Part shown: one piece after another, positions 19,368 through 33,386 of the stretch | Position numbering within the stretch: the first letter of the stretch is position 1 | How the letters are laid out: every line of letters begins with the position of its first letter | Assembly (NCBI RefSeq): GCF_019008365.1 | Contig: NZ_JAHHUL010000027.1 | Span: 1-48,313, forward strand | Length of the DNA stretch: 48,313 nt | Direction of reading: 5' to 3' | Source of the DNA: Phosphitispora fastidiosa | Lineage (GTDB): Bacteria; Bacillota; Thermincolia; Thermincolales; UBA2595 | Program-made: the position numbers and the translations under genes | The notes under the pieces: model-generated | What the model was told of the DNA's origin: nothing | Database searches by the model: none | The model's input: the letters and a program-made list of their open reading frames with translations, nothing else

Positions 19368-19410
19368 AAAGATTAAGAAGGTTAGGCTGGGCCTAACCTT
19401 CTTAATCTTT
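19368..19410. terminator. Strong bidirectional terminator
   Basis: A near-perfect 20-base-pair stem, AAAGATTAAGAAGGTTAGGC against GCCTAACCTTCTTAATCTTT, sits between the rightward AOR-DUF3343 unit and the leftward CBM25-like gene. T-runs at both ends allow use from either side. Its right arm overlaps the last codons of the CBM25-like gene. Confidence 0.85.
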
Positions 19411-19737
19411 TATGACATAAGTCCAGTTTTCTCCATTATTGTTGTCCCAGTTACTGGCGCTGTCCTTGAAACAGAAATTCAACTGATCGTCATTCATGTG
19501 CAGGACCGGTGATTCCCAACCCCTGTCCGACTTCTTTAGTGGGTGGTCATAGGTTGACTGCCAGCCGCGCCGGGTTCCAAAACCTGCTCTCATAAATACT
19601 TGGTCGGCGCCTGATTTTGACAGTAACCCATCATAAATGATTTTAACATTTTTACCGTCGGAAGATGTGGGATCAGCCTTGATATGTGACCAGGAAACGT
19701 AGTCGCCTTCACCGTTATGGGATTTTAGATATATCAC
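19402..19737 (-). CDS. Stand-alone CBM25/53-like starch-binding domain protein
   Basis: Nearly the whole protein is one starch-binding-type domain: VKIIYDGLLSKSGADQVFMR, then an aromatic stretch and LNFCFKDSASNWDNNNGENW, the diagnostic end of CBM25/CBM53. No catalytic domain, signal peptide or anchor is attached. GTG 19737 is preferred because TTGGAGG lies 7 bases upstream; an ATG at 19779 opens the same frame but lacks a ribosome site. The length is then about 111 residues. A paralogue with the same layout lies at 28707. It probably binds an alpha-glucan; in-cell binding to glycogen-like polymer is the simplest reading, but a non-classical exported role is possible. Confidence 0.8.
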   Translation of the reverse strand: MIYLKSHNGEGDYVSWSHIKADPTSSDGKNVKIIYDGLLSKSGADQVFMRAGFGTRRGWQSTYDHPLKKSDRGWESPVLHMNDDQLNFCFKDSASNWDNNNGENWTYVIKD

Positions 19738-19844
19738 ATTTTCACCTCCAATACAATTTTCAGTCAATAGTGTTCCCATTGGAGGAATAGTTACACTTTG
19801 AAAAAAATGGGGCTAATCATTAGTTCAACCAATTTCGCCATTAC

Positions 19845-27349: not shown

Positions 27350-27425
27350 TTTTAGGAGAAATGTTTTGAAAACACTAATGTTAGCCTAAATATTTGACGA
27401 TATATTTAATAACAGAATTTTAAAA

Positions 27426-27517
27426 CCGACAGGGCAAACCCTTCGCAAGACGGGGACGCAAAGCCACGGGTCCTATAAGGTATGTTTATTAAAGGACAGC
27501 CGGGTTACCGAAGTTTA
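27426..27517 (+). promoter_or_regulatory. Cyclic di-GMP-I (GEMM-I) riboswitch aptamer
   Basis: The conserved core is present in order: ACAGGGCAAACC, a stem with GCAA tetraloop, GGGACGCAAAGCC, a tetraloop-receptor-like CCTATAAGGTATG, and the 3' strand AGCCGGGTTACCGAAG. These are the diagnostic blocks of the class I c-di-GMP aptamer. GNRA loop and receptor are both recognisable. It lies 136 bases ahead of the lipoprotein gene and just before an intrinsic terminator, so it most likely controls transcription readthrough. Direction of control (on or off) cannot be read with certainty. Confidence 0.93.
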
Positions 27518-27532
27518 ACGGTTTACAAGCAA

Positions 27533-27581
27533 ACCAGTCTTTCTTCGGTCTTTTTCCGAGAAGACTGGTCTCCTTATTTTT
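27533..27581 (+). terminator. Riboswitch expression-platform terminator
   Basis: ACCAGTCT..TCTTCGG pairs with CCGAGA..AGACTGGT and is followed by CTCCTTATTTTT. It starts about 16 bases after the c-di-GMP aptamer and 70 bases before the gene, as expected for ligand-controlled termination. Confidence 0.85.
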
Positions 27582-27652
27582 AGGACGAGTTTTTGCCAAA
27601 AACCCTGAAGGGCTGCCGGAGAAATTAAAAGATCGAGGGAGGGTACTTTTTA

Positions 27653-28624
27653 ATGACAAGGAAACCATTTGTCTTGGGTCTGGTATTGTTGACATCTCTT
27701 GTATTTGTCAGTGGCTGTTCTTTTAACCTGTCCAAATTGAGTTCCATACTTCCTTCCCGGGAAAAGCCGGAAACTGTCTCGGACAAAGTCTATCAAAACA
27801 AGTCTGCAGTTAAGGCCCCTGCCAAGTCCCGGGAAGCGCTGCAAAAAGAATTGGATAGCGAAATCAATCTGGTGGTTGACCAGATTATGGCCGGTAGATG
27901 GAATGAGGCTATTAACCTGGGTGAAGCAGCTTATGAAATGGTTCAGAAGGAGCATAAGGGCAACGCGGATTCTGTGAACAGTGCAGTATATGATGCCTAC
28001 GGTTACGATGCTGCCAAAGAAAAATTGTATGAGGTATTGAGTGCAGCATATGATTTTAAATATCACCTTGAGGGACTAAACAATACTGAAAAAGAAAGAT
28101 ATGTCAGAACCGCAAAAGCCCATTTTGATATCGATCCTTCAGATCCTTTCAAGAAACTGGCGCTGGCAAAGGCACAAATTGATACAGGTGACATGAATCA
28201 AGGTCTCGGGCTTCTTGGGGAACTTTATAATTCCCAGTTTAGAGACAAGGATATCACCGAATCTTACGCCTGGGCGCTCTATCTTTCAGGCAGAAAAGAT
28301 GAGGCCTACAATATATACCGGGCCTTTTATCCCCAGTCAGAGACACTGATTCAGCTTTTTCACAGCGCTCAGGTAATAGAGGAAAAAGACAAGGCCCTGG
28401 GACTGAATCTTTATAATGGCGTTACAGGAGCGGCAAATAACCTTATGGTAAAAGACCCTAATGTCAACAATATGAGCGCTCAGACCTACATAGACCAAGT
28501 GCGGACTGGATCCCGGAATGCATCTGAAAGGCTCTTGGCAGGAGGGTTCAAGCTCAACTCCCAATACAACCTTCAAAAGATTGACCCGATTGTAAAATCA
28601 ATCGTGAAGCTTTCGGGTGAATAA
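27653..28624 (+). CDS. Lipoprotein with helical repeat body, controlled by c-di-GMP riboswitch
   Basis: A 323-residue product with a lipoprotein signal: basic start, hydrophobic stretch and lipobox VSGC, placing Cys at residue 23. It would be tethered to the outer face of the membrane. The mature part is mostly helical with TPR-like periodicity (NEAINLGEAAYEM, DPFKKLALAKAQI, SYAWALYLSGRKDEAYNIY), suggesting a protein- or polymer-binding scaffold. I know no exact family. Its expression is under a c-di-GMP-I riboswitch, so it belongs to the sessile/motile programme. A CBM25-like gene begins 82 bases after it with no clear terminator between. Confidence 0.8.
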   Translation: MTRKPFVLGLVLLTSLVFVSGCSFNLSKLSSILPSREKPETVSDKVYQNKSAVKAPAKSREALQKELDSEINLVVDQIMAGRWNEAINLGEAAYEMVQKEHKGNADSVNSAVYDAYGYDAAKEKLYEVLSAAYDFKYHLEGLNNTEKERYVRTAKAHFDIDPSDPFKKLALAKAQIDTGDMNQGLGLLGELYNSQFRDKDITESYAWALYLSGRKDEAYNIYRAFYPQSETLIQLFHSAQVIEEKDKALGLNLYNGVTGAANNLMVKDPNVNNMSAQTYIDQVRTGSRNASERLLAGGFKLNSQYNLQKIDPIVKSIVKLSGE

Positions 28625-28706
28625 TCTTAGCTGTATTATTTACCACATATAAAAACCCCCTGGTATATGAATACTAATTACAGAAAAATATTAGGGGGGA
28701 AATTTG

Positions 28707-29069
28707 ATGGACCATTTAGATTATGACCATGTGAGCCATAGCAGTTCCGATGGCATGCATGACGTTAGCGGTGTCAATGTTTATCCCACTCCCATCACCC
28801 TTGGAGAGCACGTTAATATTATATATGATGGCCTCCTGTCAAGATCCGGAGCACAGGATGTTTATCTACATGCCGGTTTTGGGTTTCACGATCAGTGGCA
28901 TGGGATAAAAGACCTGAAAATGCTACGCACCGGGCGCGGCTGGGAACAAACCCTGCATGCCGATGATGCTACCAGATTAAACTTCTGTTTTAAGGATGGG
29001 GCGGAGCACTGGGATAATAACTGGGGTCATAACTGGAGTTTTGAGATTCATGACGGGAAGCAGTATTAG
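28707..29069 (+). CDS. Stand-alone CBM25/53-like starch-binding domain protein
   Basis: A 120-residue protein made of one carbohydrate-binding module: VNIIYDGLLSRSGAQDVYLH, then an aromatic middle and LNFCFKDGAEHWDNNWGHNW. It is clearly paralogous to the leftward gene at 19402-19737. The N-terminal 20 residues are rich in His, Asp and Ser and do not form a signal peptide. ATG 28707 is chosen because AGGGGGG is 7 bases upstream; TTG 28704 directly precedes it. It lies behind the riboswitch-controlled lipoprotein and ahead of the glucan locus. It is probably an alpha-glucan-binding protein. Confidence 0.8.
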   Translation: MDHLDYDHVSHSSSDGMHDVSGVNVYPTPITLGEHVNIIYDGLLSRSGAQDVYLHAGFGFHDQWHGIKDLKMLRTGRGWEQTLHADDATRLNFCFKDGAEHWDNNWGHNWSFEIHDGKQY

Positions 29070-29326
29070 GGCTGTAATTTTTGGAGCTATTTAACGGCAA
29101 TGTAAATAGGGGCAGATGTGTTCTTACGGCGGGCCCCCAATCCGTTACCGAAACCCCGGGCTTTTAAAAAGGCCGGGGTTTCGACGGATTGGGGGGGCCC
29201 CCGACATCTCAACCGGTTACCCAAACCCACTAAAGCGGGTTTGGACCGGTTGACGACAGACACCGCCTTTCAGAACACATCTGCCCCTATCTTAATAAGC
29301 TGCTAAACAGCTCCAAAAAACAGCCC
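29069..29326. repeat. Large nested palindrome (element A) with two inner hairpins
   Basis: An outer stem (GGGCTGT and TTTTTGGAGCT against AGCTCCAAAAAA and ACAGCCC) encloses a second perfect 16-base arm pair. That pair is GGGGCAGATGTGTTCT at 29109-29124 and its complement at 29272-29287. Inside lies a GGCGG/CCGCC clamp and two long hairpins: CCCAATCCGT-TAC-CGAAACCCCGG, and CAACCGGT-TAC-CCAAACCC. Each hairpin has the same 3-base TAC bulge on the 5' side. The element begins on the stop codon of the CBM25-like gene. Arms and clamp recur at 33383 and 36415. Confidence 0.9.
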
Positions 29327-29406
29327 TGGCATACTGCCAGATATAGAGAAGCGGGTATTTCGCCGAAGCCTGTTTTTAAGGTGGTTAGGTGATGAAAATC
29401 ATAACC

Positions 29407-29452: not shown

Positions 29453-29586
29453 TACTAATTTGGTGGCGTATTGTACGAGAATTTCTGCGGTAGTGCGAAA
29501 AATCTATACTATACGTCACCATAGAGAATAAAGGATTTACTCCTAAGGTAAAATAAGCTGGAGAGGAAATAAGGAGGAGTTCAAAG

Positions 29587-30852
29587 ATGAAGGTACTGAT
29601 GTTATCCTGGGAGTACCCTCCCAAAAACGTTGGGGGATTGGCCCAGCATGTGTATCACCTGTCCAAGGCTCTTGCCAGGCATGGGGCGGAGGTTCATGTT
29701 ATTACAATCGGCGCGGATGATGCTGTGCCCTATGAGGAAAATGAAGGTGTCCGGGTACACCGGATTTATCCTTACAGCATCTCAGCCCCAGATTTCAGGA
29801 CATGGATACTGCACCTTAATTTTTCGATGCTTGAATATGCAGTAACTCTGCTTAACACCATCAAGGGTGTTGATATCATTCATGCCCATGACTGGCTGGC
29901 TGCATTTGCGGGGCGGGCGCTGAAGCATTCATTCCGAGTGCCCCTGGTGGCTACAATTCATGCAACGGAATTTGGGCGCAACAATGGACTGCACAATGAG
30001 AACCAGAGGTATATCAGTGATGTCGAGTGGTATCTCACTTTTGAAGCCTGGAAAGTAATAGTCTGCAGTACTTATATGCATAGGGAACTGAAGGGTTTTT
30101 TCCAGCTTCCTGAGGACAAGCTGAGGATCATACCAAATGGTGTTACTATTGAGGATTTTGAGACTGGTTCTGATTACCGTCACAAGGGCACAGAAAAATA
30201 TATTTTCTTTATTGGCAGACTGGTTCGGGAAAAAGGGGTACAGGTGCTAATTGAGGCTGCACCCAAGATACTGTCATACTTTCCTGAGGCCAGATTTGTC
30301 GTGGCCGGTACCGGCCCCTATGAAGAGCACCTGCGCAGTATGGTGCGGGAAAAGCGGCTCGGACACCGCTTTTATTTTGCCGGTTATGTGGATGATGCTA
30401 CCAGAAACCGCTGGTTTGCTCAGAGCAGTGCCGCTGTATTTCCCAGCCTGTATGAGCCCTTCGGTATAGTTGCTCTGGAAGGGATGGCAGCGAAGACACC
30501 GGTGGTAGTCTCTGACACCGGAGGGCTGAGTGAAATAGTGGAACACGGTCGGGATGGGATGAAATGTTATGTGGGTTCCGCCAATTCACTGGCAGATAAC
30601 ATCATGGCAGTACTTGGGGATGCGGCGCTGGCAAACCGTCTGCGTAAAAACGGTTACGAAAAGGCCAGAAATAAATATAGTTGGTTTTCGGTTGCCGGCC
30701 AGACCCTGGAAGTTTATGAAGCAGTAATCACTCAGTCCAAAAGGGCGGATTGGCATACTGATACCTGGAGGGCAGCAGATCCTCTCTCGGCTCTTTATGA
30801 AAAAGTAAAAAGCCTTGGCAGGGCAAATGTTCCCGGGCAGAGAGTCCACTGA
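29587..30852 (+). CDS. GT4-family glycosyltransferase, probable alpha-glucan synthase type
   Basis: The 421-residue retaining GT-B enzyme starts with [19 protein letters not shown], the glycogen-synthase-like N-terminal Gly loop. It has [23 protein letters not shown] and the donor-binding [12 protein letters not shown] with its E-x7-E pair. Enzymes of this type next to GH57 branching enzymes are thought to build alpha-1,4-glucan from a nucleotide sugar. There is no signal peptide, so it acts in the cytoplasm. ATG 29587 has AAGGAGGAG upstream. The nucleotidyltransferase gene follows after 14 bases, making a two-gene operon. Confidence 0.85.
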
Positions 30853-30866
30853 AAGGAGAAGATACC

Positions 30867-33386
30867 TTGGTACAGTCAATTATTATGGCCGGTGGAGAAG
30901 GTTCACGCCTTCGGCCGCTGACCTGTAACCGGCCCAAGCCGATGGTGCCGATGCTTAACAGGCCGGTAATGGAATATACGGTGGAGCTTCTGAAACGGCA
31001 TGGAATTAATGAAATTGGTGTCACTCTTCAGTATATGCCGCAGGAAATACAGAACTATTTTGGTGACGGGTCCGGTTTTGGAGTCAGCATGGAATATTTT
31101 ATCGAAAACACCCCTTTGGGCACCGCAGGCAGTGTCAAAAACGCTAAGGGGTTCCTGAGGGATACCTTTATTGTTGTCAGTGGAGATGCTCTGACTGATT
31201 TTGATCTGACAGAGGCCATCCGATTCCACCGCGAAAAGGGGGCTCTGGCTACAATTGTACTTACCCCTGTGGAGATTCCCCTTGAATATGGCGTTGTGAT
31301 TACGGAGAATTCGGGAGCCATCAGGCAGTTCCTGGAGAAACCGGGTTGGGGAGAGGTTTTCAGTGATACTGTAAATACCGGGATATACATTTTGGAGCCG
31401 GAAGTTTTAAAATATATTCCGGAAGATACCAAATTTGATTTCAGTAAAGACCTTTTCCCCTTCCTGCTAAGGGAGAATATGCCTCTCTTTGGGGTAAATC
31501 TGAGAGGATACTGGTGTGATATCGGTAGCCTGAAACAGTATCAGGAAGCCCATTTTGCAGCTATGGAAGGCAAGGTTAATCTTGAGGTCAGGACGGCTTC
31601 CGCGGGTAACGGTATATATACCGGTGAAAACTGTCGGATCGACCCGGCTGCCATTATAAAGGCTCCGGTTATTATTGGCGCTGACTGTCATATTGGTCCG
31701 GGAGCGGTAGTTGGTCCACATGTGGTAGTAGGCAACGGCTGCAGGGTGGATAATAATGCTTCGATAAAACGGGCAGTGGTCTGGAACGGTTCACATGTTG
31801 GCAAACAGGCCGAAATAAGGGGCGCTGTCATCTGTGGCCGGGTCACAATAAAGGATGGGGCAGCGGTATTTGAGGGTGCAGTTATTGGTGAAGAGAGTAT
31901 CATCGAAGAAAATGCGCGGGTTAAACCCAACACCAATATCTGGCCACACAAGCTGGTGGAAAAGGGTACGGTTGTTGATACCCATCTAGTGTGGGGGACA
32001 AAGGCCTGCCGTAATCTCTTCGGAACTGACGGTGTCTCCGGAAAAGTGAATACTAACCTTACCGCAGAGTGTGCCGCCAAACTGGGGGCTGTTTACGGCA
32101 CTATTGCCGGTTCCGGGGCTACTGTATTGGTAAGCAGTGATTACCACCGGAGCACCAAAATGATTAAGAGCGCTATTATCGCGGGTCTGATGTCAGTTGG
32201 GGTAATGGTGACAGATGGCGGAACTCTGGTAACTCCGGTACACAGGCATGCTGTTCGGGCTGTTGCAGCCAAAGGGGGGATTCACGTAAAATCATCGGCT
32301 GCCGACCCGGAGACAATAAACATCAATTTCTTTACCGCAAACGGGGCCATGATTTCCAGAGATATGGAACGAAAAATTGAGAACCAGTTTGAAAGGGACG
32401 ATTTCCAACGCAAAACCAAACACCAGGTGGGTGTTGCAACATATATGCCCGGACTCACCGAATCATATATCCGCAGTTTGTTGGATATGGTTTGCAGGGA
32501 TGATATCAGGAAAGAACAGTACCGGATAGCTGCTATCCTGCCAGGAGACAGCCTGCAGTCTATTGCTCCCTGTGTTTTTGGGGAATTGGGCTGTGAATTA
32601 GTCAATTTTGCACCGGGGACAGGCCACATCATGGAGAACAGCCCTGAAATAGCTGGTGGCAGACCTGATGGGTATGCTGAGTTTGAGCAGATGATGACTG
32701 TTGCTGAGAAAATTGCGCCTGAACTGGCAGGGACAGGTGCGGATATGGGGGTTGTATTTGACAGTAATGCCGAACATGTCATTTTAATAGATGGGTCCGG
32801 ACGGATTCTGGATGAACCGCTCTTTACAGCACTGATGTCAGCAGTTATCCTGGATTCATCCCGGGATCCGGTGGTAGCAGTTCCGGTAACAGGGAGCCGG
32901 GTGGTGGAATCCCTGGCAGAAATCAGAAATGGCAAAGTTATCAGGACGAAAACCTCACCTGTGGTATTTATGCACGAAACCATGAAGCCTGAGCTCATCG
33001 CAGCCCAGGGGCAGTTTAACCAGTCTGTAGTTACCTTTGATGCCATCTCAACAGTTGTCCGGATTATGGATTACATGGCTGCCAGGGACACTGATCTTGT
33101 TGACATAATTGCGGCACTGCCTGAGATAAATATGATTAAAAAGGAGACGGACTGCCCGTGGACTGCCAAAGGCAGGGTAATGAGAAAACTGATTGAGGAA
33201 AGCAGTGGTCAGGAAGTGGAACTGCTGGATGGAGTAAAGGTTTACCATGACAACGGGTGGGCGCTGGTACTTCCCGATGCCGAAGAACCCAGGTATCACG
33301 TTTATTCCGAGGGATACTCTTACGAATTTGCCGAAAGCCTGGCTGACTTTTATATTGACAGGATTAATCAGTTGAAAAACAGTTAA
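30867..33386 (+). CDS. Sugar-1-phosphate nucleotidyltransferase fused to a degenerate phosphohexomutase
   Basis: The 839-residue protein has three parts. Residues 1-235 are a nucleotidyltransferase with [13 protein letters not shown], the Lys in RPKPMVPM, and [10 protein letters not shown]. Residues about 250-360 are a left-handed beta-helix of hexapeptide repeats. Residues about 385-839 resemble a phosphomannomutase/phosphoglucomutase, opening with FGTDGVSG. The usual phosphoserine loop (TASHNP) is replaced near residue 474 by HVKSSAADP, and the metal loop DxDGDR near residue 630 by FDSNAEHV, so mutase activity is doubtful. TTG 30867 follows AAAGGAGAA. Its product, an NDP-hexose, would feed the GT4 enzyme upstream. 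Confidence 0.88.

Follow-up and report, generated by a model that had tools for sequence, protein, structure and literature searches.

A c-di-GMP-I riboswitch paired with a lineage-specific lipoprotein gene, and the adjacent CBM53 gene as its probable non-target, in Phosphitispora fastidiosa and relatives

Introduction

A c-di-GMP-I riboswitch in Phosphitispora fastidiosa is followed by the gene of an exported lipoprotein, by the gene of a predicted starch-binding protein, and then by genes of glucan synthesis. The question raised by this locus is whether the riboswitch would control the lipoprotein gene alone or also the glucan-binding protein, as proposed in a sequence-only reading that placed alpha-glucan binding under c-di-GMP. 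Class-I c-di-GMP riboswitches are well documented 5' of surface genes of many kinds (PMC7266159), and the riboswitch described here is a further instance of that class.

The window (the whole stretch of DNA that was analyzed, 48,313 nucleotides) is an entire contig (C27) of a 4.09-Mb genome, designated G000. It was compared within a set of ten genomes of the class, G000 included, of which nine carry the lipoprotein gene (G000 to G006, G008, and G009). The features of the locus are given in Table 1.

Table 1. Features of the riboswitch, lipoprotein, and CBM53 region, in window coordinates.
Feature	Position	Strand	Basis or remark
Sigma-70-like promoter candidate of the riboswitch transcript	27366-27394	+	TTGAAA-17-AATATT; consensus scan, weak
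c-di-GMP-I riboswitch aptamer	27424-27513	+	Covariance models; GCAA tetraloop on P2; G20, A47, C92
P1 3' strand ACCGAAG	27507-27513	+	Complementary to terminator 5' arm
Intrinsic terminator	27533-27581	+	Full stem 27533-27569, U-rich tail to 27581
Predicted antiterminator partner CTTCGGT	27543-27549	+	Within terminator 5' arm
Lineage-specific lipoprotein, 323 aa	27653-28624	+	Lipobox; helical TPR-like solenoid (model)
Conserved promoter-like block 5' of CBM53	28639-28676	+	TTTACCACATATAAAAA-N14-AATACTA; alignment
CCCCCT, predicted to hide the CBM53 RBS in read-through RNA only	28656-28661	+	Folding
CBM53 ribosome-binding site (RBS) AGGGGGG	28693-28699	+	Predicted partner of CCCCCT
Stand-alone cytosolic CBM53 protein, 120 aa	28707-29069	+	Pfam CBM53 match
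GT4-type glycosyltransferase	29587-30852	+	glgA_Coryne best, below cut-off; conserved neighbor
Nucleotidyltransferase-phosphoglucomutase fusion (GlgC/PGM-like)	30867-33386	+	Conserved neighbor

Identity of the aptamer

The aptamer core recognized in the sequence-only reading was borne out by the RF01051 (c-di-GMP-I) model, which gave 68.9 bits relative to a gathering score of 35, and no other Rfam match exceeded its gathering score elsewhere in the 48 kb window. The bases G20, A47, and C92 (in Vc2 numbering) were unchanged across 12 aligned aptamers, comprising the window element and 11 relatives, and both sides had changed in 6 of the 18 stem pairs, with 98% of cells paired compared to 91% in shuffles.

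The same stretch also passed the RF03167 (c-di-GMP-I-GGC) model, with 66.5 bits relative to a gathering score of 59, and this was the label assigned by cmscan, in which RF03167 was best by E-value. That the aptamer senses another dinucleotide, either cGAMP or the ligand of the GGC variant, is nevertheless highly improbable, because the canonical model gave more bits and the bases point elsewhere: the displayed RF03167 consensus has G at position 47, whereas all 12 aligned aptamers have A, on which the GGC variant was rejected despite its score, and a GEMM-Ib cGAMP riboswitch was rejected on G20 in place of A20. An A at position 20 is the mark of cGAMP sensors, and the A20G change converts one of them into a c-di-GMP sensor (PMC6456294). 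On the basis of the three bases, and of this published role of position 20, we infer that the window aptamer binds c-di-GMP as an ordinary sensor of this ligand. The genome encodes 16 GGDEF matches over the cut-off and contains 18 c-di-GMP-I aptamers.

The lipoprotein gene

The exported lipoprotein with helical repeats described in the sequence-only reading was recovered, the repeats in the form of a structural model. The lipobox of the window protein is VSGC, and the pattern [VLIMA][SAT]GC was found at Cys22 in all nine orthologues. The predicted structure is all-helical (pLDDT 78) and in a fold search was similar to TPR solenoids at E 6e-4, with low TM values of about 0.35-0.43; no TPR profile exceeded its cut-off with this protein, the best giving 15.4 bits. 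Outside the class, a search of about 390 Bacillota genomes gave only marginal matches, and these weak signal-peptide or TPR-like matches were rejected as homologues (the best was 1e-5, relative to 1e-107 inside the class).

Each of the nine related genomes with the lipoprotein gene has an aptamer 5' of it, and this constant pairing supports the interpretation that the lipoprotein would be governed by a c-di-GMP-I riboswitch. In G009, a purine riboswitch (locus L031 2656-2757) is oriented divergently from the lipoprotein aptamer.

The leader and the direction of the switch

The promoter candidate of the riboswitch transcript is weak, because the consensus scan of the region yielded 8 such sites relative to 4.3 expected. 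Directly 5' of this transcript, TGNCGAA-like motifs, possible Spo0A-box-like elements, were observed in the window (27393-27401) and in the leaders of G005, G003, and G006. Downstream of the aptamer, the terminator noted previously was found again as a terminator-like hairpin with a U-rich tail, the match of the terminator scan (27545-27568) lying inside the full stem.

Two unrelated kinds of expression platform precede the lipoprotein gene among the nine genomes. In the leaders of G000, G004, G005, and G002 (group A), the terminator 5' arm CTTCGG complements the P1 3' strand CCGAAG; of the shuffled arms, about 0.8% equaled the 7-bp run ACCGAAG/CTTCGGT, and G002 retains the 7-bp pairing through an A-to-G and a T-to-C change, with GCCGAAG/CTTCGGC in its place. 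In the leaders of G003, G006, G001, G008, and G009, it is an arm of another kind (TTACCCTATT-like) that complements the aptamer core (AATAGGGTAA-like). When the RNA was folded only as far as the terminator loop, so that the 3' arm was absent, the 5' arm paired with the aptamer in all nine leaders. The energies of free duplexes were also compared with those of shuffled arms, and most leaders were not significant in this antiterminator test, with a clear win only in G003 and G001 and a close value in G008.

Because this pairing of the terminator 5' arm is available in each of the nine leaders, these results suggest that c-di-GMP switches transcription off, a direction that we infer, given that the simple duplex test was significant in some leaders only. 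At low c-di-GMP, the aptamer strand would pair with the terminator 5' arm and transcription would continue, and at high c-di-GMP the aptamer would fold, the arm would be freed, and the terminator would form, such that no lipoprotein would be made. An ON switch, in which the ligand-bound aptamer prevents the terminator, has precedents among c-di-GMP-I riboswitches, such as Vc1 activating gbpA (PMC4744006), but we regard it as rather unlikely here, since in the nine leaders the terminator arm is sequestered by the ligand-free fold and not by the aptamer fold, and in group A the complementarity sits in the P1 3' strand.

The CBM53 protein and its neighbors

The second gene had been read as encoding a CBM25-like module, and it was found instead to match Pfam CBM53 (2.2e-10, 41.1 bits, cut-off 27.6), whereas CBM25 gave 21.3 bits, under the cut-off of 27.3. 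The protein is a predicted alpha-glucan (starch) binder, in which no export signal was found over its 120 residues and in which W64, W79, W102, and W110 are invariant among nine orthologues. Its model is a beta-sandwich (pLDDT 78) with weak structure matches, including the CBM25 structure 2c3x at E 0.011. The adjacent enzymes of glucan synthesis are present as stated before, the GT4 and GlgC/PGM-like genes being conserved neighbors. Another stand-alone CBM53 protein, which shares 48% identity with the first and is kept in relatives, is encoded at 19402-19779 (-).

Between the CBM53 and GT4 genes, there is a palindromic repeat (29075-29330), of which the genome contains dozens of partial copies. 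In the window and in G005 this gap exceeds that of G004 by about 300 bases, which suggests a recent MITE/REP-like insertion. A block GAATAAA-N19-AATAAGC is located 5' of the GT4 gene (29526-29558) and is kept in most relatives; it may be akin to a forespore sigma promoter.

Gene order in relatives and in other Bacillota

The order lipoprotein, CBM53, GT4, and GlgC/PGM was found in seven of the nine genomes, and the lipoprotein and CBM53 genes are adjacent in eight, including G001, the contig of which stops after CBM53. In G008, the two genes are 6.5 kb apart, with the aptamer 5' of the lipoprotein gene and no aptamer within about 1.5 kb 5' of CBM53. A SECIS_3-like element near the CBM53 gene of G008 (locus L014 2940-2998) scored 53.8 bits, below the gathering score of 63.

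When 80 CBM53 loci from named records were inspected, an aptamer was found in six, all of them from close relatives in this group, and none was found nearby in the 73 loci outside it. The order homocitrate synthase-IDH-CBM53-GT4-GlgC/PGM, without the lipoprotein, was seen in Desulfovirgula, Desulfofundulus, Desulforamulus, and others. The simplest account of these gene orders would be that in the Thermincola lineage a riboswitch-lipoprotein unit was inserted at the junction of IDH and CBM53; loss of this unit elsewhere is a possible alternative.

The region between the lipoprotein and CBM53 genes

The absence of a terminator between the two genes, as stated in the sequence-only reading, held for the + strand of the window (28624-28707), but a conserved promoter-like block in this gap had been missed. 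The block, TTTWCCACAWATAAAAA-N14-AATAMTAAT, lies 50-90 bases 5' of CBM53 and could be aligned in all nine genomes, including G008, although it is degraded in G009. The strict pattern was found in eight of the nine, and a form of it (GCATAAAA...CATAATAATA) in 6 of 17 other Bacillota loci, with no more than 2% expected per matching sequence, the counts being descriptive because the pattern was composed after viewing the sequences. The block is thus partly common to bacteria that have neither the lipoprotein nor the riboswitch.

No sigma-70 promoter for CBM53 was found in the scan, and the block has a different architecture, the -35 part of which fits no sigma-70. In spacing and letters it may be closer to promoters of the sporulation sigma factors (sigma-G or sigma-E type), a likeness that we use as a lead only. 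The exact block has one copy in the genome, and a large regulon was rejected, as the relaxed pattern gave 6 matches relative to 5 in a reversed control.

Terminator-like hairpins lie between the lipoprotein and CBM53 genes in G006, G001, and G002, whereas the three closest genomes (G000, G005, and G004) have no terminator there and a gap of only 82-88 bases. In G000, the sequence CCCCCT, located 5' of the presumed CBM53 start site, was predicted to pair with the RBS, the unpaired probability of which was 0.00 in read-through RNA relative to 0.66 in RNA from the gene's own promoter. Shuffled spacers reproduced this masking in 0 of 200 cases for G000, 2 of 200 for G005, and 1 of 200 for G001; the masking was not significant in G004 and was not seen in G003, G006, G002, G008, and G009. 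Where they occur, the hairpins in relatives and the masking of the RBS would uncouple CBM53 from the transcript that starts at the riboswitch.

Is CBM53 a target of the riboswitch?

The account that we consider likely builds on the computed aptamer, diagnostic bases, and terminator, on the conserved association of the aptamer with the lipoprotein, and on the conservation of the CBM53 block, and it supposes ligand binding, an OFF direction, promoter activity of the block, and RBS masking. The riboswitch would control, by transcription termination, the single lineage-specific exported TPR-like lipoprotein, and CBM53 would be an older member of the glucan-synthesis cluster, transcribed separately by a conserved promoter of its own that may be of sporulation type. 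CBM53 is probably not a riboswitch target in most of these genomes because it has its own block, kept in G008 with the lipoprotein 6.5 kb away, and because of the hairpins in three genomes and the predicted masking of the RBS in G000, G005, and G001. Of the proposal that the riboswitch leads both genes, the part concerning the lipoprotein is supported and the part concerning CBM53 is not supported.

A single operon, in which c-di-GMP sets the amount of the glucan-binding protein, would fit the 82-base gap without a terminator, the adjacency in eight of nine genomes, and the glucan genes that come next, but it appears unlikely in view of the separate block retained in G008, the hairpins of G006, G001, and G002, the occurrence of the CBM53 cluster without an aptamer in other Bacillota, and the RBS predicted to be masked in read-through RNA. 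Somewhat less improbable is dual control, by which minor read-through would add to a promoter of CBM53 itself, perhaps one active at sporulation, such that c-di-GMP only shifts the basal level of CBM53. The combination of the block with the absent terminator in the genus of the window is as expected from this arrangement, and co-transcription is possible there; however, read-through RNA of G000 and G005 is predicted to conceal the RBS, and the arrangement is impossible where terminators occur. The glucan link of the riboswitch is mostly positional.

Comparison with known systems

Among the closest parallels is Cd1 of C. difficile, a transcriptional OFF c-di-GMP-I riboswitch upstream of flagellar genes (PMC9262584), which is alike in aptamer class, terminator platform, and the pairing of the ligand-free aptamer 3' end with the terminator region. 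The window switch differs in that it would control a class-restricted lipoprotein and in that platforms vary between close relatives. Vc1 of Vibrio cholerae, which acts directly and positively on gbpA, encoding the chitin/GlcNAc-binding colonization factor GbpA (PMC4744006), is likewise a class-I c-di-GMP riboswitch beside a carbohydrate-binding protein, whereas in the window the binder is a cytosolic CBM53 protein that the switch probably does not control. CBM53 modules occur in plant starch synthase III (PMC6243121), with the same Pfam family and a glucan-synthase partner; unlike these, the window protein stands alone and its gene adjoins, and is not fused to, the GT4 gene.

Our literature search for Thermincola and riboswitches found nothing joining Thermincola and c-di-GMP riboswitches, the sole joint match being a genome report on another genus. 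The locus would add an exported lipoprotein as a c-di-GMP target that is conserved throughout a Thermincola-like lineage, and the same logic is predicted from each of its two unrelated platforms. It is also a clean case in which co-regulation is suggested by the conserved arrangement of genes beside a riboswitch, while deeper comparison points to two separately controlled units.

Other c-di-GMP-I aptamers in the genome

What still speaks most for a link between c-di-GMP and glucan, although a weaker one, is a second locus (G000:C2:90400-94840), where three c-di-GMP-I aptamers lie within 1.5 kb. The last of them, at C2:93405, is followed by two genes, one for a DUF4912 protein and one for a GH57 branching-enzyme/glycosyltransferase. 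This last aptamer is kept in six genomes and degraded in a seventh (6-7 of 9 relatives). It may not be the main control of the locus, because a TATAAT-like element is conserved near the DUF4912 start, 250-390 bases 3' of the aptamer in six genomes. It is doubtful that c-di-GMP riboswitches tune alpha-glucan storage in Thermincola-like bacteria at two loci, through CBM53 read-through and through DUF4912/GH57 (C2:90400-93500); if they did, glycogen handling would be tied by riboswitch to the motile-sessile-sporulation decision. Riboswitches would then reach carbon storage, which in the literature searched is tied to c-di-GMP only in Streptomyces, where c-di-GMP acts on glycogen breakdown via GlgX (PMC9530166), a system that is alike in linking c-di-GMP with alpha-glucan metabolism in a sporulation setting and different in using allosteric control of an enzyme and not a riboswitch.

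Other aptamers (L148-L161) precede flagellar rod genes, MCP/CheW-like genes, and a gene for an HD-domain protein, as well as a type IV prepilin-peptidase/pilin-like locus and genes for SLH proteins, a FeoB-like GTPase, and an HU-like protein, several of these genes being named from sequence alone.
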